Source: a virus. From it: a stretch of DNA of 64,000 nucleotides. Positions 20,414 to 60,751 of the stretch are shown here, in pieces. The stretch lies in the IMG/VR virus record IMGVR_UViG_3300047476_002043, positions 18,024 through 82,023 of that record; one strand, 5' to 3'. How positions within the stretch are numbered: the first letter of the stretch is position 1; the number at the start of each line of letters is the position of its first letter. The notes below the pieces were generated by a model. That model was not told the DNA's origin. It made no database searches and worked only from the letters and a program-made list of their open reading frames with translations. The position numbers were made by a program, and so were the translations under genes.

Positions 20414-20982
20414 TAGATTCTCCTTCGTTGGTTTGGGTGGCTCATAGAGTGATAACGACTACATTTACTTTAAATATCTCTAAGGTCTCAATCCTCAATT
20501 TAAGAGTTTGTGATGTTCCCTACTCAGTGTTCTTTGTAATTCATTCCTTCGGCTTTAGAGTGTAGAATAACTTTGAGTTTTAGTTGATGATTTTTGCTTC
20601 GCCATCTTTTTTGAAAGATTCTTGATATCGATGAAATCTTACTTTGTTGTTCTACCCTTCCACTCAGGGAAGGGTATAAGTTATGATATCTATAAATATT
20701 TTTTTAGTTGTTCTCGTGCGCGCTTGCGCGTATAGATACTAGTATTAAGATTACTTAATACTAGTTATATCTTTATTTATCTATTATTATTTCTTATATA
20801 AGAAGAAGTATTTATTAATATCTTCTTATACTCTTTAGAGTATAAGTTTATATTTATAAGTATCTTACGTAGTAAGATACTTCCTTCTAGCAACGCAGGC
20901 CTGCGCGCGCGTATTTATAGTTGTCAAATTTAATTCCTAAGGGTAGTCATCTTATACCTAACCAATTTCAAGGAGCTCCCTA
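20414..20982. other. Gene-free AT-rich divergent region
   Basis: About 570 bases without a gene separate the minus gene at 20413 from the plus gene at 20983. The left half is plain AT-rich sequence; the right half holds a chain of perfect palindromes (20653-20905). It may contain divergent promoters, a replication origin or another cis element. Confidence 0.7.
20653..20905. repeat. Cluster of six perfect hairpins
   Basis: Separate inverted repeats lie in series: 20653-20676 (9 bp), 20738-20765 (12 bp, loop ATTA), 20797-20830 (10 bp), 20826-20845 (8 bp, loop TTTA, competing with the previous one), 20858-20882 (11 bp, loop GTA) and 20894-20905 (12-base palindrome). A CGCGC/GCGCG pair is at 20719-20730. 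The arms differ from each other, so this is not a simple repeat array. Confidence 0.8.
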
Positions 20983-30962: not shown

Positions 30963-31060
30963 AGATTCTCGCTGGCTGCGAGGACAGAGTGTCTGACAGT
31001 ATGCACTATAAATAATCTGTTGCATGCACATTGAGTTCTCCACCTCACGTAGATCAGTGA

Positions 31061-31147
31061 TCAATCATCTTCTAGACGACCTCGCGTCGCACTTGGTAAG
31101 AACTGCTCTTTAGAGCAGGAATGATGGTTCAAATCCGTCTGGTTGAT
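31061..31147 (+). tRNA. tRNA-like gene with enlarged D loop and short anticodon loop
   Basis: The acceptor TCAATCA/TGGTTGA forms 7 pairs (one wobble), the T arm GATGG/CCGTC with TTCAAAT is sound, and the anticodon stem CTGCT/AGCAG is perfect. The D stem TTCT/AGAA encloses 25 bases including an extra hairpin (GACG/CGTC). The anticodon loop is CTTTAG, six bases, one short. CCA is not encoded. It may be a decayed tRNA or a tRNA-like RNA; possible anticodons are UUA or UAG. Confidence 0.55.
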
Positions 31148-31386
31148 CCGTTACAATTTTCAACGGCCTACTCGGAGCTATGTTCGACATGACCATGACC
31201 TCTATGTCGAAAGACAGACGTCGGTGGTGTGCGATTATCTGTGGGTAATAGCTATTATCGATAGCTAGGGCAACCTGAGAGGCTGACATCAAGCTAGGCT
31301 TAAAAATTCTCAGTACAACCTTAGACGGTGCGCAACGTCAACGGATCGATAGTCGATAGCCAGGTTAGTCTGTCATGAACCCTATT
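31148..31386 (+). other. Non-coding spacer in the tRNA cluster
   Basis: About 240 bases with no gene. A small GNRA hairpin (AGG-GCAA-CCT) is present near 31267-31276, and GACATC recurs here and at two further places in the non-coding regions. No complete tRNA is seen. Confidence 0.5.
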
Positions 31387-31428
31387 GTTGGCCTACGCTA
31401 GCGGTAGAGCGACATCGTCCCAAGATGG
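31387..31428 (+). pseudogene. tRNA-Gly-like 5' half (CCC loop)
   Basis: GTTGGCC, TA, a D arm CGCT/AGCG with GG, and an anticodon arm CATC/GATG with loop GTCCCAA resemble tRNA-Gly(CCC). No T arm with TTCGA or matching acceptor strand follows. It is a fragment or a very divergent tRNA-like RNA. Confidence 0.5.
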
Positions 31429-31469
31429 TGTACAGGTTAGTGATCATCACCTAGCAAATTCGTCGAAGG

Positions 31470-31508
31470 AACCACCTAGGCCCCAACGGGCCTAGGTGGT
31501 TTTTTTTA
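31470..31508 (+). terminator. Terminator of the tRNA cluster
   Basis: A 14-bp perfect stem with loop CAAC, then seven or more T on the plus strand. It shows that the 30.2-31.5 kb region is transcribed on the plus strand. Confidence 0.9.
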
Positions 31509-31572
31509 TTTTATCTTTTCTCCCTATAGTAAGCGTAGCCGCACCAACCAACAAAAAACAAGAGGTAGAATC

Positions 31573-32632: not shown

Positions 32633-33130
32633 ATGAATCCAATCCTTACCAGACACGCCGCCCTCAAGAAAAAGATCAAGCCTTCTTACGTGAGTCTTTT
32701 TCTGACCAATCAAAAAGTTACCCAACCAGAAATCGATACCACCATCAGTCTTCTCGAACATCAAGGTGGGTACGATGCGCTTGTTGAGCTCGCGCTACAT
32801 GGACCTATCCCTTACGACGATGGTGTCATCAGCCGCCTGTTCAAAATCCCACTAACTAATCTGACAACAACTACTGTTGTTAAATCTTCGTCCTCAAAAA
32901 AGCTAGTCCTTGCTGAAGGGATAAGCGAACTAGGACTTAAACTTCTTGCCGCACACTACGGCTTCCAGGCTTCAAGGGGTAATCAGTACCTCAAAGATAC
33001 ACTAGACTACATATTCTGCCTTGATGCCATCAAGCAAGATGAAGAAGCTGGTGATGGCTGCGTCAGATGCGGGGGACCTAGTGATGTATGTAAGTTCTGT
33101 GGAAAACTCCAGAAGGTAGCACATGCTTAA
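32633..33130 (+). CDS. Protein with C-terminal zinc finger, 165 aa
   Basis: A helical N-terminal part and a C-terminal CVRCGG-x-CKFCGK four-cysteine finger (about residues 142-158). It overlaps the deformylase gene by eight bases, so the two are translationally coupled. The finger may bind RNA, ribosome or protein; function unknown. Confidence 0.8.
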   Translation: MNPILTRHAALKKKIKPSYVSLFLTNQKVTQPEIDTTISLLEHQGGYDALVELALHGPIPYDDGVISRLFKIPLTNLTTTTVVKSSSSKKLVLAEGISELGLKLLAAHYGFQASRGNQYLKDTLDYIFCLDAIKQDEEAGDGCVRCGGPSDVCKFCGKLQKVAHA

Positions 33131-33569
33131 GACTATCGATAATGATACAGAAGGATGCCTGCGGAAGGTATCTCAACCCATCGTCTTCGATGATACATCA
33201 GCTGAGTTCCTTGAACGTCTTGTCAAGGTTATGATGAAGACGGTTATTGATTCTGGAGGCATCGGCTTAGCCGCTCCACAGGTTGGTATCTCCAAACGCG
33301 TTATCATCATCAAGCGAAGAGCACACAGCGACTTCTTGGTTATGATCAATCCCAGCATAATCAGACGAGTAGGCAAATTGGTAGCCTGCGAAGAAGGCTG
33401 TCTCAGCGTTCCCGGAAAAGCTGTGCTCAAAAAGAGACATGCATCTGTCCTGGTTGCCTATCAAACTGTTGATGGCAAACATCTGACTAAAACCTTCGAT
33501 AACGTTGACGCCCGATGCGTTCAACACGAGATCGACCACTTAGATGGCGTTCTCATATCGGATGAGTAA
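33123..33569 (+). CDS. def: Peptide deformylase
   Basis: All three signature motifs are present in 148 residues: GIGLAAPQ at 46-53, EGCLS at 91-95 (Cys93 metal ligand) and HEIDH at 135-139 (two His ligands and the catalytic Glu). The enzyme removes the formyl group from nascent N-terminal Met with Fe or Zn. It is shorter than bacterial enzymes, lacking the C-terminal helix, as usual in phages. A phage copy may speed maturation of phage proteins or alter host processing; this is inferred. Confidence 0.96.
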   Translation: MLKTIDNDTEGCLRKVSQPIVFDDTSAEFLERLVKVMMKTVIDSGGIGLAAPQVGISKRVIIIKRRAHSDFLVMINPSIIRRVGKLVACEEGCLSVPGKAVLKKRHASVLVAYQTVDGKHLTKTFDNVDARCVQHEIDHLDGVLISDE

Positions 33570-34992: not shown

Positions 34993-35219
34993 TTTGGTTT
35001 ACCATAATAAGCGAGAAGAATCTTGCTGATGAGCTAATCCCTTGTCGAGCTGCTTCATAAGATGCAGAATCAAATAGGGCAACCTAGTACTAGAAGTAGT
35101 GCGAAGTCTATCCGACTCAAGATGAGCTGGATAGTGACATCAGATACATTGCTGGTAACCAGGATATCGTCCTTAAGGACTGATCCTACTTCCTGACTGA
35201 GAAAAAACTTAAGTCTGAT
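34993..35219 (+). ncRNA. Candidate structured non-coding RNA
   Basis: No gene fits. Hairpins include TAGG-GCAA-CCTA (GNRA loop), a nested CTATCC/GGATAG stem with inner CTC/GAG, CTGG-TAA-CCAG and GTCC/GGAC. A TTCATAA loop flanked by partly pairing arms looks like the remains of a tRNA-Met anticodon arm. A strong plus-strand terminator follows at 35220. It resembles the 30.2-31.5 kb region in having GACATC and a GGGCAACCT hairpin. Confidence 0.5.
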
Positions 35220-35257
35220 AACCACCACCTGCTACCTTGCGGTAGCAGGTGGTGGTT
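35220..35257 (+). terminator. 17-bp hairpin terminator with T10 run
   Basis: A 17-bp perfect stem with loop TTGC (GCAA on minus), then a long T-run on the plus strand. It ends the plus-strand non-coding transcript and also lies past the last gene of the minus operon at 35329. Confidence 0.9.
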
Positions 35258-35328
35258 GTTTTTTTTTTGTTGCTTAAGCGATATTGTAGGCGCGCGCTCG
35301 ATGTGAACCCATGAGAGGTTCTCCTTTC

Positions 35329-52364: not shown

Positions 52365-52484
52365 TTATTTGAACATTTTAGGAGCGGTAAGAACGAGAAC
52401 GAAGGCGGCTGCTGCAAGCAGCATGCCGAATGAGATTTTGATGTCGATAGCAACTCGCTTGTTATCTTCAGATTCATTGCTCAT
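52365..52484 (-). CDS. Single-span membrane peptide, 39 aa
   Basis: ATG at 52484 with GAGGAA upstream and a TAA stop. The peptide has a hydrophilic N-terminus (MSNESEDNKR) and a C-terminal membrane segment (FGMLLAAAAFVLVLTA). It is the first gene after the octamer at 52543 and resembles in layout the tail anchor of the 50293 product. Function unknown. Confidence 0.68.
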   Translation of the reverse strand: MSNESEDNKRVAIDIKISFGMLLAAAAFVLVLTAPKMFK

Positions 52485-52542
52485 GGCGATTCCTCATGGT
52501 TTTAGGGTTAAGACTTAAGCTTTTGATAGCTTATTCACCCAG

Positions 52543-52550
52543 GTAATGTA
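52543..52550 (-). promoter_or_regulatory. Early-promoter-like octamer TACATTAC
   Basis: Minus-strand TACATTAC, 59 bases upstream of the start at 52484, with AGATCT on its 5' side. Confidence 0.66.
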
Positions 52551-52599
52551 GATCTATGAGCCAATGAACTACACTTTTTGAATTAATCATTATATACTC

Positions 52600-52865
52600 G
52601 AAATCACTTGCCTGTACCTCCCAGCTTTTAGCAGCCCTTGTAGATGGGGATAAAGGATAGGCAAGCCACTGGTTAATTCGGCTACCAAGACAGTTCGGTG
52701 TCTAGGTGGTTACAAGGGTTGGCATGTGTGTGCTCTGGAGGTTTGACCGGCGGTAAGTTAGCTGTTTAGGGGTTTTGTGTCCTCGTGGTTTACCCTAGGT
52801 AGTCTAACTTATCCAGGAATTGGTCCTCCTGGATTGCGGGGCCTAAGGTCTAACACCTCCAAAAA
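52600..52865 (+). ncRNA. Candidate pseudoknotted structured RNA
   Basis: No gene fits this GC-richer stretch, but many exact pairings do: CTTGCCT/AGGCAAG (52607, 52659), CCCTTGTA/TACAAGGG (52635, 52711) crossing it as a pseudoknot, a three-way junction CCAC/GTGG with TGGT/ACCA and AGACA/TGTCT, then GGAGGT/ACCTCC with GACC/GGTC enclosing TAAGTTAG/CTAACTTA, TAGGG/CCCTA and CCAGGA/TCCTGG. A hairpin terminator follows. The plus strand is favoured because AT-rich promoter-like sequence lies to its left, but orientation is not certain. No known RNA family is recognised. Confidence 0.62.
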
Positions 52866-52881
52866 GACAACATGAAGCCTA

Positions 52882-52917
52882 GCTCACCCCTCCCGGCTTG
52901 CGCCGGGAGGGGTGAGC
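52882..52917. terminator. 16-bp hairpin terminator
   Basis: A very GC-rich perfect 16-bp stem with loop TTGC (GCAA on minus) between the RNA candidate and the end of the minus gene at 52935; it could serve both. Confidence 0.8.
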
Positions 52918-52934
52918 CTTGCTCTGTTTGATTG

Positions 52935-53297
52935 TCATTTCTTTCTTTCTAGGCGATCTAGCGCATTCATAATGATTTTAAACCCGTTCCTGGATAGCCC
53001 ATTCTTATTCGAGCAGTTGTATAACCACCCAAGTCCATTGTGATAGATACAGATGTTGTATACCACGGAGTCGTGATCTATTATCTCAATGTGGATATCC
53101 TCAAAATGGAAAACTTTGGCAGTTTGAGTAACCGAGAAGCTGCACTTTCTATGAAAGATCCTGAGGTCGTGCATATCGTTTATTCTCTTGAACAGCATAT
53201 GGCGCTGATCCGGAGATGCGATATTGAAGAATTTGTAAGCTGTGTTCATACAGAAGAACAGAGTCGCAGCGATCATAAGTAGAATGATGTACAACAT
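52935..53297 (-). CDS. Membrane-anchored hypothetical protein, 120 aa
   Basis: The ATG at 53297 has AAGGAGG eight bases upstream. Residues 1-18 form a membrane segment or signal anchor (MLYIILLMIAATLFFCM); the rest is soluble. No family is recognised. It follows the polymerase promoter-proximal side and is bracketed by two hairpins. Confidence 0.75.
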   Translation of the reverse strand: MLYIILLMIAATLFFCMNTAYKFFNIASPDQRHMLFKRINDMHDLRIFHRKCSFSVTQTAKVFHFEDIHIEIIDHDSVVYNICIYHNGLGWLYNCSNKNGLSRNGFKIIMNALDRLERKK

Positions 53298-53332
53298 TGC
53301 CAATACCTCCTTCCTGTTTATAAGATGACCAC

Positions 53333-53372: not shown

Positions 53373-55451
53373 TTAAGAACCGTAGATGTCACCAAGCAGA
53401 AGCTGACGCTTATCATGGCCAACAGCGATACCCAAGCGCTCAAGTGTTAGGTAAGCGGGCTTGAGGTTACTGAAGATGATGTGTCTAACGTTGATGAGCG
53501 GAATCAGTTCTTCAGGAATAGACCTACAAAGAGAATGTAGGACGATCGCCGAAGGTTGCTTCTTGTCGCCAACATGAGCAAGGTATTTCTTGTAGGCAGA
53601 AGGATTGCGCTCATTGAGCCATTCCAGGTACTGCGGCGTGATCGTGCAGAGCTTGATGAGAGGTACTTTATCAGGAGGATTGATGATTCCGTACTTATCG
53701 CCGAAAACGGCATTCCAAGCATCGCAATAGGCCCAGACTGAACCCTCAGGGTTGTCGTAGTCCTTATCCATCTTGACGGTTTGCTTAGGGAGATAGGTGA
53801 GTTCACCCTTAGCTAAACTCTCTCGGATAGCCTGTTCGAAAGCGATGACTTTATCGATGAGAGCAATACCGCTAATATCCCCTTTTGTAGCTGGGATAAC
53901 GATATCGTTGATGATGAGATCTTCGATGAAGTCCAAACTATCTTCAGCGATAGTTGAACCTTTGAGAACCGCACCTTTGATGTCAGGCTTAGGCTTAGGT
54001 AAGTTGACACCTTCTTGAATCTTGATGAGACCGGCGTATGTCTTTTTGGTATCGTACAGGATCAGCGCAGGATACAAGAACTCGTTCTTCATCCGCATGA
54101 TCTTGGTGTTCTCTTTAGTCGCACCCTGAGCGATGCTGAATTTACTCATGGCATCATCGTTGGCTTTGGTGAGCCAGTAGGTGACAAGAGCCGAGATGCT
54201 GAAGTGTGGAACATCGATGTTGTTAAGGTGACCAACGAACCACTCTGCCCAGTCCTTTGAGGTAAAGATAACCGAGTCAGTGTCAGAGATGATGACGGTA
54301 TTCCTAATCATCGCTTTGCGAGTAAGGATGTTGGGCGTCATGATGTTGTGGTAGATGAACGTTTCGAACAGATCATCCAGGAACCGGAGTTTTTTGTCCA
54401 TAGACTTGGCTGTCTGGACACAAAGTCTTGCGAGATTCGGATGCTTGTCGACCAGTTCACTATGTTTGGTGTCGGCCAGTTGAGGACTAAGGATAGTGTA
54501 GACGATAGGCATCATGTCCCCATCGAACTTATGGATATCCTTAGGGTCGACACTAGGGTCAACTTCAACGATCGGTGTAAGGATATCTTGGATGATGGGG
54601 CGGAAGATTGATTCATTAGCCCAGAAGAGATGGCGCAGGTTGCTGGCGTAGTAGATGAACTGGTGCACATGCCAAGGGAGGCTTCTGATGTACTGAGCGA
54701 GCATTCCAAAGTTATCACGTCGTTTGTATTGCATGACTGTTTTGGTCATGTAGTCGACAACATCTTCTGCCGAGACAGCTCTGATGTTATACTTGGTAAT
54801 GGCGTTCTGGATGGTCTCATGTGGTGGACCAAGGCGATTGCAAAGAATAGCCCAGTTGAGAGCTTCGGTGACATTGAACCAGGCGAAGTTACCACCGAGT
54901 GTATTCTCAGCTGTAGTGTAAGAGTGCGCGATCATCGCTCGAGCGCTTGAGGTGATCGAGTTGTAGCCGGCTTTGCAGTAGAAGACGTTGTACGCAGAGC
55001 CGTATCCACCAGGGAGTGAGTTTAGGCGAACCTTAACTGTAGTCTGTGCACACTTGTACTTGCGGACCATCATCTTCTCGCCAGACTCTTCAGCGGCGAA
55101 TTGTTTCTTCTTCAGAGTCTTCCGTTCGAGAAGACCTTCTTTGGTCATAGTTGAAAGGAACGCTTCTTCAACGTGAGCTGGCTTGTAGACTGTACCACTA
55201 GGAGTAATGATGTCTTTGTTGTACTTTTGAAGATAATTACCGAGGTTGCTTGATACAACTTTGGCAACCCCATCTCTAGGGTTTTCAACGCAGGTGATGG
55301 CAGGATTTTTGAGACGGGTCATTTGTGATTCGATGTATGCCATAGCCTCTTCGGGCGAGCATTTGGTGGATGCAGTCAACAGGCTAAGCATGTTGTTTTT
55401 GTAGGACGCTAGAAGCTGTGGGCGGACAACTTCGTCTGCAACTCTTTCCAT
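53373..55451 (-). CDS. Family B DNA polymerase, C-terminal (palm/thumb) part
   Basis: The 692-residue protein has VKVRLNSLPGGYGSAYN near residue 140, matching motif B (K-x-x-x-N-S-x-Y-G), IISDTDSVIF near 390, matching motif C, and a later LYDTKKTYAGLI matching the KKxY motif. The 3'-5' exonuclease and motif A are missing, so a partner gene elsewhere should supply them; split polymerases are reported in phiKZ-like phages. The distance from motif B to C is about 245 residues instead of about 60, so an extra domain is inserted in the palm. AAGGAG precedes the ATG at 55451. Confidence 0.85.
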   Translation of the reverse strand: MERVADEVVRPQLLASYKNNMLSLLTASTKCSPEEAMAYIESQMTRLKNPAITCVENPRDGVAKVVSSNLGNYLQKYNKDIITPSGTVYKPAHVEEAFLSTMTKEGLLERKTLKKKQFAAEESGEKMMVRKYKCAQTTVKVRLNSLPGGYGSAYNVFYCKAGYNSITSSARAMIAHSYTTAENTLGGNFAWFNVTEALNWAILCNRLGPPHETIQNAITKYNIRAVSAEDVVDYMTKTVMQYKRRDNFGMLAQYIRSLPWHVHQFIYYASNLRHLFWANESIFRPIIQDILTPIVEVDPSVDPKDIHKFDGDMMPIVYTILSPQLADTKHSELVDKHPNLARLCVQTAKSMDKKLRFLDDLFETFIYHNIMTPNILTRKAMIRNTVIISDTDSVIFTSKDWAEWFVGHLNNIDVPHFSISALVTYWLTKANDDAMSKFSIAQGATKENTKIMRMKNEFLYPALILYDTKKTYAGLIKIQEGVNLPKPKPDIKGAVLKGSTIAEDSLDFIEDLIINDIVIPATKGDISGIALIDKVIAFEQAIRESLAKGELTYLPKQTVKMDKDYDNPEGSVWAYCDAWNAVFGDKYGIINPPDKVPLIKLCTITPQYLEWLNERNPSAYKKYLAHVGDKKQPSAIVLHSLCRSIPEELIPLINVRHIIFSNLKPAYLTLERLGIAVGHDKRQLLLGDIYGS

Positions 55452-58455: not shown

Positions 58456-58868
58456 AGCATTACTTTAGGAACTACGACGAACTTAGAAATGATTTGGACA
58501 AGACATCTGGCTTCGATAGGTACTACCTGTTCTGTCACCAATACGAAGCCATTTTCTATCCTAACAAAATCGCTCCCATAGCTAGTACCTACAGGTATGG
58601 TTACAAGATCGACACTGATGAGATAAATAGCCCGTTTTACCACCGGGTCATGAACCTCTGTCTTAAGCCGATCAATCGTGACCCTATGGGAGGTGATAGG
58701 TTCTTGGTTAACATCCTAGGACTTACGCCGAACGATATCTTTAAGTTCGACTTCGCCAGTTTCATAGATCTTGAAGACCGGATCGTAGCTCTTGAAAACA
58801 GCTACAGAGATGAACTTGCCGAGAAAGCAAACTCGGCGGCTAAACTGAAACAGGAAATATCTAAATGA
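58416..58868 (+). CDS. Frameshift extension of the 56992 gene, 150 aa
   Basis: This -1 frame continues with YAFRNQDSQKD and ends in a charged helix. It lacks an ATG or ribosome site near its start, so translation by frameshift from 56992 is the simplest explanation (475 plus 150 residues). Its last bases overlap the chaperonin start by ATGA. Confidence 0.7.
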   Translation, partial: YAFRNQDSQKDQVKHYFRNYDELRNDLDKTSGFDRYYLFCHQYEAIFYPNKIAPIASTYRYGYKIDTDEINSPFYHRVMNLCLKPINRDPMGGDRFLVNILGLTPNDIFKFDFASFIDLEDRIVALENSYRDELAEKANSAAKLKQEISK

Positions 58869-60751
58869 CAAAAAACGACAATGAACGACCGGGCGCCATG
58901 ATCCTGGATGCTTACGAAGGCAAAACCAACATCATCGAAGACAAGAATATCGATGACACAATGATCAAAACCTTCGAGTTCATGCTCAACCTCCTCAGTG
59001 ACTATTGTGGTCCTTATGGCAAGTATGCCATCTTGGCTGCAACTCCTGGATCGGGCCTGGAACCAACGTTCACCAAGGACGGTATCAACATCGTCCGTTC
59101 AATCGAGTTCGTCAATCTGATGCAGCGTCATGTCAAGGACATGATCACCTACATCGGTTCCTGCGTTGAGCGTTCGGCTGGTGATGGTACAACATCCTCG
59201 ATGATCGTTGTCACGAAAGTCCTCCTTGAGATCCGTAAGTATCTCAGCGAGGTCGATGACCAGAAGAAATATCTGAATCATATCACCTATACCCAGTTCC
59301 GCTCTGAGTACGAGGCTTTCGTAGCTCGTGTCGTCGAAAAAATGAACGCTTACGCCATCAAGGTCACGAAGGAAACTCCCAAAGACAAGATCGCGGCCTT
59401 GGCTTATCACCAAGCCATGACCTCATCCCACGGAGACAAAGTACTTGCTGAGATGGTCAGTCAGTTCTTCAGTAGCATTTCACCCGAAGCGTGGAAGAAC
59501 ATCCACTACCGTCGAGAAACGCACGAGTCAGCTGCTCTCTACAGCTTCGAAACGAAAGATTGCGACTTCATGTCGAGTCGAGCTTCGGTCTTCAGCGGTA
59601 ACATGCTGAATGCTGAACAGGGAACAGAATACGTCATGGAGGGTGGTAAATTGGTTGTCTGTCCGACAGCTCTCATTTCCAACTCGCCCAACTGGCCTAT
59701 CCTTAAGAACCTGATCAAGGAAGCCATCGACAGTAAAGACAAACTCACTGTCATTGCCGGGTCGGCTTACGACTCAACCATCCAGCAGCAGTTTGAAGAG
59801 ATGTTCCATCAGGCCACAGAAGGCCACAATGTAGCGATCTTCACTCTCGATGCTACCGGCAACCCACTGACACAACACTTGACAGCCCTTGGTGCTATCC
59901 TCGGCTACAATGTTGCGAATTACCAAAAGCTAATCACTGTCGACAACGTGGATGTTAAGTTCAAACGGCGTAGACTGATGCTTAGTGGTATCGCTACCTA
60001 CGACGCGGATTGTCAGATCGTAGGACACGCTGACGAGAAGATCATCATCGGTGCGTACCTCAAAGATTTGTCGGCGTTCATCGAACGCCGCACCAAAGAA
60101 AAAGATGATCCGTACATCGCCAAAGAGCTCTCTGTTGCCACTGAGCTTTACAACCATGTCAAGTTCCGCAACCTGAGCACCTTCGTTATCGGCGGTAAGG
60201 CTTACGACCACATCGCTGCTAATGAGGTTGTCCATGATACCTTCACAGCAACTCGTCGCAGTTTGTTGGAAGGTACTGTCTTGGGTAGCTTTGCTACGCT
60301 CAAGCGAGCTCTCTCGGACATCATCAAAGAAGAGCGCAAAGAGAAAAAATCTCTCGCTGCTGTTCTTGCCCATGCCTTCATTTCAGGCATTCAATTCGTC
60401 GAGATGTGCGTTCTCAAATACAGCCCTACCCCGGACCTCAATGAGATTCTGCCTCTCACAGAAACAGAACCTTCTCGTGAATGGATCGCGAGTAAACTCG
60501 AAATCAGTCAATTCCTAACCGCAAGAGAAATGGGACTCTGCGTTTACGATGTTATGACGAATAGCTTCGTCAACTTGGAGATGGCTGAGACTAAGGGCAA
60601 TCATGTGATTGTTCAACCGATTAGCACAGACATCGCCATGATGAATCGCTTCGGTGAAGTGGCTTTAAAATTCCTCTTCGCCAACAGAATCATGGTTCCT
60701 AACAGTGTCGTCGTCAACGATGACCCTAAAAGCAAGGAAGCTAAGAAATGA
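58865..60751 (+). CDS. GroEL-like chaperonin
   Basis: The 628-residue protein has GPYGKYAIL at 49-57, FTKDGINIVRSIEF at 69-82 and GDGTTSSM at 106-113, matching GroEL motifs for ATP binding and hydrolysis (GPKGRNV, TKDGVTV, GDGTT). It is about 80 residues longer than GroEL, with a charged C-terminus in place of the GGM tail. Related chaperonins are known from jumbo phages such as EL, where they work without a GroES. It should assist folding of phage proteins in the cytoplasm. Its position directly after a tail assembly gene pair suggests tail or capsid clients. Confidence 0.92.
   Translation: MTKNDNERPGAMILDAYEGKTNIIEDKNIDDTMIKTFEFMLNLLSDYCGPYGKYAILAATPGSGLEPTFTKDGINIVRSIEFVNLMQRHVKDMITYIGSCVERSAGDGTTSSMIVVTKVLLEIRKYLSEVDDQKKYLNHITYTQFRSEYEAFVARVVEKMNAYAIKVTKETPKDKIAALAYHQAMTSSHGDKVLAEMVSQFFSSISPEAWKNIHYRRETHESAALYSFETKDCDFMSSRASVFSGNMLNAEQGTEYVMEGGKLVVCPTALISNSPNWPILKNLIKEAIDSKDKLTVIAGSAYDSTIQQQFEEMFHQATEGHNVAIFTLDATGNPLTQHLTALGAILGYNVANYQKLITVDNVDVKFKRRRLMLSGIATYDADCQIVGHADEKIIIGAYLKDLSAFIERRTKEKDDPYIAKELSVATELYNHVKFRNLSTFVIGGKAYDHIAANEVVHDTFTATRRSLLEGTVLGSFATLKRALSDIIKEERKEKKSLAAVLAHAFISGIQFVEMCVLKYSPTPDLNEILPLTETEPSREWIASKLEISQFLTAREMGLCVYDVMTNSFVNLEMAETKGNHVIVQPISTDIAMMNRFGEVALKFLFANRIMVPNSVVVNDDPKSKEAKK

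Follow-up and report, generated by a model that had tools for sequence, protein, structure and literature searches.

A gene-free stretch beside the DNA polymerase gene of a phiKZ-related jumbo phage: candidate small RNA or intergenic spacer

The window analysed here comprises 64,000 nucleotides (bases 18024-82023) of an 82,023-base IMG/VR virus record (IMGVR_UViG_3300047476_002043), which covers part of the genome of a phiKZ-related jumbo phage (giant bacterial virus). A gene-free stretch of 450 nt (52485-52934; ORF lists and gap table) lies between a 39-aa ORF (52365-52484) and a 122-aa ORF (52935-53303; start at 53297 or 53303), both on the minus strand; the 122-aa product has a hydrophobic N-terminus and belongs to no family. 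The stretch is downstream of the gene for a phiKZ-type family B DNA polymerase (53373-55451, minus strand; phrog_2927, E 1.4e-117), whose identity to the polymerases of isolated phages is only ~25%, with ~40% for the best environmental records. The record also encodes an RNA polymerase beta-subunit, topoisomerase II subunits, an ATP-dependent DNA ligase and a GroEL-like protein (58865-60751; phrog_5725, E 2e-27).

In relatives, the DNA polymerase and RNA polymerase genes are close together, whereas here they are separated by ~38 kb (14.7-53.3 kb), and this ~38-kb block (window 14674-53300) is without homologues in the closest relatives. The DNA between the RNA polymerase subunit and DNA polymerase genes is a lineage-specific accessory block, with the DNA polymerase as the last conserved gene beside it and the gene-free stretch at its polymerase end. 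The non-coding share of the record is 9%, and gene-free gaps of 300-580 nt recur several times. A phage-encoded peptide deformylase is found at 33123-33569 (Pfam PF01327, E 6e-39).

The initial annotation had placed an undescribed pseudoknotted RNA in this stretch, with no ORF and no tmRNA tag. Its account of the coding capacity is confirmed: no ORF of at least 35 aa occurs within 52485-52934, and six-frame translations with stops read as X gave no Pfam or PHROG match, so that the stretch lacks coding capacity, as a stand-alone phage non-coding RNA would. No tRNA or tmRNA was found in it by ARAGORN or Rfam, in agreement with the claimed absence of a tmRNA, and the tmRNA and RNase P identities that had been considered were dropped. 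A search of the whole window against Rfam 15 at gathering score returned tRNAs only, with no family at the stretch, and a local Rfam search of the stretch up to E 10 yielded sub-threshold chance matches only; its description as absent from Rfam is correct.

The motif TCTACATTAC at 52552-52543 (minus strand), of the early phage promoter type, precedes the minus-strand operon that runs from 52484 downwards. The window has four exact copies, each of them on the minus strand (9777, 12045, 50014 and 52552), and a near copy at 919; the copies sit 47-200 nt before minus-strand genes, and the motif is enriched upstream of genes on the sense strand only. It resembles the predicted promoters of EL (CCTACATTAT) and phiKZ (TATATTAC) (PMC7058600), fits the description of early jumbo-phage promoters (PMC7598289) and has the features of phiKZ-type early promoters, namely an AT-rich, conserved motif of ~10 nt before operons on the sense strand. 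TCTACATTAC is apparently the predicted early promoter motif of this phage. Because the copy at 52552-52543 lies downstream on the minus strand, the stretch would not be the leader of the next operon. On the plus strand, a weak possible promoter, ATTATATAC, lies at 52589-52597; no sigma-70-like site was found in the stretch.

At the other end is a G+C-rich, perfect 16-bp hairpin with a 4-base loop (52882-52897/52902-52917), which can form on either strand. The initial annotation had called it a terminator; the 16 base pairs are indeed perfect, but no T-run directly follows the stem on either strand, and a regional terminator scan did not list the hairpin. It is separated by 17 nt from the preceding stop codon of the 122-aa gene (minus strand), and similar intergenic hairpins without a U-run recur in the phage. 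The hairpin could end the minus-strand 122-aa gene, a plus-strand RNA, or both.

All of the named stems are present. CTTGCCT (52607-52613) pairs exactly with AGGCAAG (52659-52665), and this pair is crossed by the equally exact helix CCCTTGTA (52635-52642)/TACAAGGG (52711-52718). Further along, the stems TAAGTTAG (52754-52761)/CTAACTTA (52804-52811) and ATCCAGGA (52811-52818)/TCCTGGAT (52827-52834), which have one base in common, are exact, as is the closing stem TGGAGGT (52736-52742)/ACCTCCA (52855-52861). The number of helices is another matter: in place of the eleven exact helices reported, we counted 7 maximal Watson-Crick helices of at least 6 bp, against 7.35 in dinucleotide shuffles. Three helices reach at least 8 bp (shuffle mean 0.48, P 0.018), which is equalled by 4.4% of the record's 266-nt windows, and 2.9% of them contain a crossing 7x8-bp pair like the one here (shuffle P 0.024). 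Since these fractions of equal windows match, several equally good windows are expected in 64 kb. The excess of long helices and the crossing pair are modest and post hoc, and the named stems are weaker evidence than had been claimed.

On the plus strand, the 5' domain contains helix H1 (CUUGCCUGU, 52607-52615/AUAGGCAAG, 52657-52665; 9 bp with one G-U), the proposed pseudoknot helix H2 (CCCUUGUA, 52635-52642/UACAAGGG, 52711-52718; ~11 bp with G-U pairs) and the hairpin H3, GGCUACC-A-AGACA(GUUCGG)UGUCU-A-GGUGGUU (52680-52711; z -3.35 for 52675-52720). The G-U extensions of H1 and H2 were taken straight from the sequence. The domain as a whole is ordinary (z -1.5 on the plus strand). Its plain fold has an energy of -41.9 kcal/mol; keeping the pseudoknot strands unpaired gives -34.4 kcal/mol, and the crossing helix H2 amounts to -14.3 kcal/mol. 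With an assumed pseudoknot penalty of 7-9 kcal/mol, the pseudoknotted 5' fold is predicted to be about equal in energy to the non-pseudoknotted one, so energy does not decide for the proposed H1/H2 pseudoknot.

Evidence for structure is stronger in the 3' domain (52736-52861) than elsewhere in the stretch. It forms a multi-branch fold on the plus strand, closed by UGGAGGU/ACCUCCA and containing the stems UAAGUUAG/CUAACUUA and AUCCAGGA/UCCUGGAU, with z -2.9 on the plus and -4.0 on the minus strand (values as low occur in 5% and 1.5% of coding windows, respectively). For the whole stretch including the 16-bp hairpin, the fold energy gives z = -4.5; without the hairpin, z is -2.1/-2.2 on the plus and -2.5/-2.8 on the minus strand, and a z of -2.2 is reached by 16% of the phage's coding windows. 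Whole-stretch folding is unexceptional, only slightly better than chance, and folding energy does not pick a strand, z on the minus strand being as low or lower. The gene-free setting and the stems of the originally proposed RNA are confirmed; that it is transcribed and pseudoknotted is a proposal, and outside the 3' domain its fold is barely above chance.

Relatives of the stretch were sought at several levels. No homologue was found by blastn against phage and plasmid records, by nhmmer and blastn on retrieved relatives, or by blastn on 20 whole records, in which the short matches checked were mostly within genes. No homologue came up in 50 related jumbo-phage records when covariance models were used for the 3' domain (R1) and the 5' domain (R2), nor with R1 in five phiKZ-like phages; the sole covariance-model match (17.7 bits, in G039) is inside a 504-aa ORF. 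A match of R2 at 31470-31508 (minus strand) is a terminator hairpin that has CTAGGTGGTT in common with H3 and was judged to be chance. Exact 17-mers of the stretch in IMG/VR gave matches in ORFs only, or none, and in the GTDB genome collection one 17-mer had 7 matches, scattered and with unrelated flanks. The neighbouring accessory proteins also have no relatives among phages or in IMG/VR. Single-sequence covariance models are weak detectors, and their failure to match phages whose polymerases are ~40% identical is no strong argument that homologues are absent. In a search for base-pairing to translation starts, with a duplex model that ignores self-structure, no usable target stood out.

A second candidate RNA lies at 10104-9850 on the minus strand and consists of ATTGTATAC, ~215 nt of structured sequence, and a strong hairpin with a T-rich tail (CTTCCTTTCTTTTTT). 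Folded on the minus strand it has a z of -3.6 to -3.95, against -1.75 to -1.97 on the plus strand, and it is a better RNA candidate than 52485-52934. The motif ATTRTATAC occurs twice in the record, at the possible plus-strand promoter described above and just 5' of this second candidate; at least two copies are found in 13 of 100 shuffled windows, and the coincidence is not significant. The upstream sequences of the two candidates are not significantly alike. Against Rfam, the second candidate scored nowhere above threshold, and none of 28 related records yielded a homologue of it.

We tentatively read the stretch as most likely holding a plus-strand gene for a lineage-specific small RNA of the phage, with a plain spacer about equally likely. 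For the candidate RNA we infer transcription, strand, ends, pseudoknot and function as follows. A phage RNA polymerase would begin plus-strand transcription at an AT-rich site near 52590-52600; the resulting RNA, ~280-320 nt long, would have a hairpin or pseudoknot as its 5' domain, a multi-branch fold as its 3' domain and its end at the 52882-52917 hairpin. Such a transcript may act as a stable regulatory RNA in infection, through base-pairing or protein binding. The only internal GGAGGU (52737-52742) could be contested by two ACCUCC segments (52616-52621 and 52855-52860), one of which would then be free to pair with Shine-Dalgarno sequences. Consistent with an RNA gene, neither an ORF nor recognisable remains of one are present in the stretch, the trio of 8-bp helices and the crossing pair have P ~0.02 each, and the z of the 3' domain is below that of 95-98.5% of coding windows. 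The early promoter at 52552 would set it outside the leader of the next minus-strand operon, the second candidate has the same layout with better folding statistics, and, by analogy, intergenic and UTR-derived ncRNAs occur in phiKZ (PMC8545117). Weighing against an RNA gene are the ordinary whole-stretch z, the absence of a strand choice, the non-significant promoter likeness to the second candidate, the lack of any homologue and so of covariation, and the fact that no base-pairing target stands out; the hairpin without a U-run serves the minus-strand gene equally well.

A close rival is an ordinary intergenic spacer, in which the hairpin would end the minus-strand polymerase-side operon, TCTACATTAC would start the next one and the helices would be chance pairings: minus-strand signals then account for both ends of the stretch, the helix count is at chance level with an ordinary whole-stretch z, and gaps of this size are present elsewhere in the record. 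A spacer accounts less well for three 8-bp stems and an organised 3' domain at the 2-5% level, and ~280 nt beyond the promoter is long for a genome with 9% non-coding DNA. If the stretch were instead transcribed on the minus strand, by read-through or from a separate start (e.g., as a processed 3' or 5' untranslated RNA), the minus-strand z values (-4.0 for the 3' domain), the orientation of both flanking genes and the 5'-UTR origin of one phiKZ ncRNA (PMC8545117) would all be in keeping. We nevertheless consider a minus-strand RNA unlikely, as the next operon is preceded by a predicted early promoter of its own, located downstream of the stretch, the G-U pairs that extend H1, H2, H3 and the 3' stems exist on the plus strand only, and no early-type motif occurs on the minus strand between the hairpin and the stretch. 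Least probable is a decayed protein gene or tRNA remnant; location within a block of accessory genes would suit such a remnant, but neither Pfam or PHROG matches in six frames nor a tRNA (ARAGORN, Rfam) were detected. Returning to the plus-strand RNA, it is doubtful that it represents a new class, i.e., a pseudoknotted two-domain phage RNA that would affect translation or a phage protein during infection and would be one of at least two structured stand-alone RNAs (with 10104-9850 minus) in an undescribed phiKZ-related branch.

Several known RNAs offer points of comparison. GOLLD and ROOL are large, ornate, multi-helix non-coding RNAs of phages and bacteria, some of them phage-encoded, and are Rfam families; the candidate RNA would likewise be non-coding and multi-helix, but the stretch is much shorter and is without an Rfam match or conservation evidence. 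In the nested pseudoknot of HDV-type ribozymes, the loop of helix 1 reaches past a further hairpin to pair with a downstream strand, much as the H1 loop here would pair to a strand 3' of another hairpin; this identity was rejected, since Rfam gave no match and the segment separating the pseudoknot strand from the 3' arm of helix 1 contains no P3-like hairpin. Type III antitoxin RNA (ToxI), like the proposed RNA, is pseudoknotted and followed by a strong hairpin, and was set aside, as the stretch contains no tandem repeats and no same-strand toxin gene follows it, the next gene being on the opposite strand. Few phage non-coding RNAs have been described, and in phiKZ a Grad-seq study with Northern blots reported only two candidates, one of ~100 nt between PHIKZ298 and PHIKZ297 and the other the 180-nt 5' UTR of p40 (PMC8545117). 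Those resemble the present case as structured non-coding RNAs from gene-free stretches of a phiKZ-type phage, but they were seen as RNA, whereas the stretch here is known from sequence alone, is longer and has no phiKZ-like homology that we could find. Phage ncRNAs of this general kind are already known, and novelty would need a proven, family-defining pseudoknot. If the RNA from this stretch is real, it would, together with the second candidate, add a poorly sampled jumbo-phage branch to that list and be a target for infection RNA-seq; if the stretch is a spacer, it illustrates how readily 265 bases can produce convincing stems by chance.

Three other gene-free stretches of the window have features of their own. 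Window 20560-20900 is AT-rich (29% GC), lies between divergent genes and contains many 9-12-bp palindromes (e.g., ACTAGTATTAAG and AAGTATCTTAC); it is a possible origin or control region. The long interval 30963-31510 follows tRNA-Asn and tRNA-Thr, carries a tRNA-like GGTAGAGC motif and ends in a terminator with a T-run, and could be a degenerate tRNA or a further RNA. On the plus strand, 34993-35265 has a z of ~-3 without its hairpin and ends in a strong hairpin with a T run.
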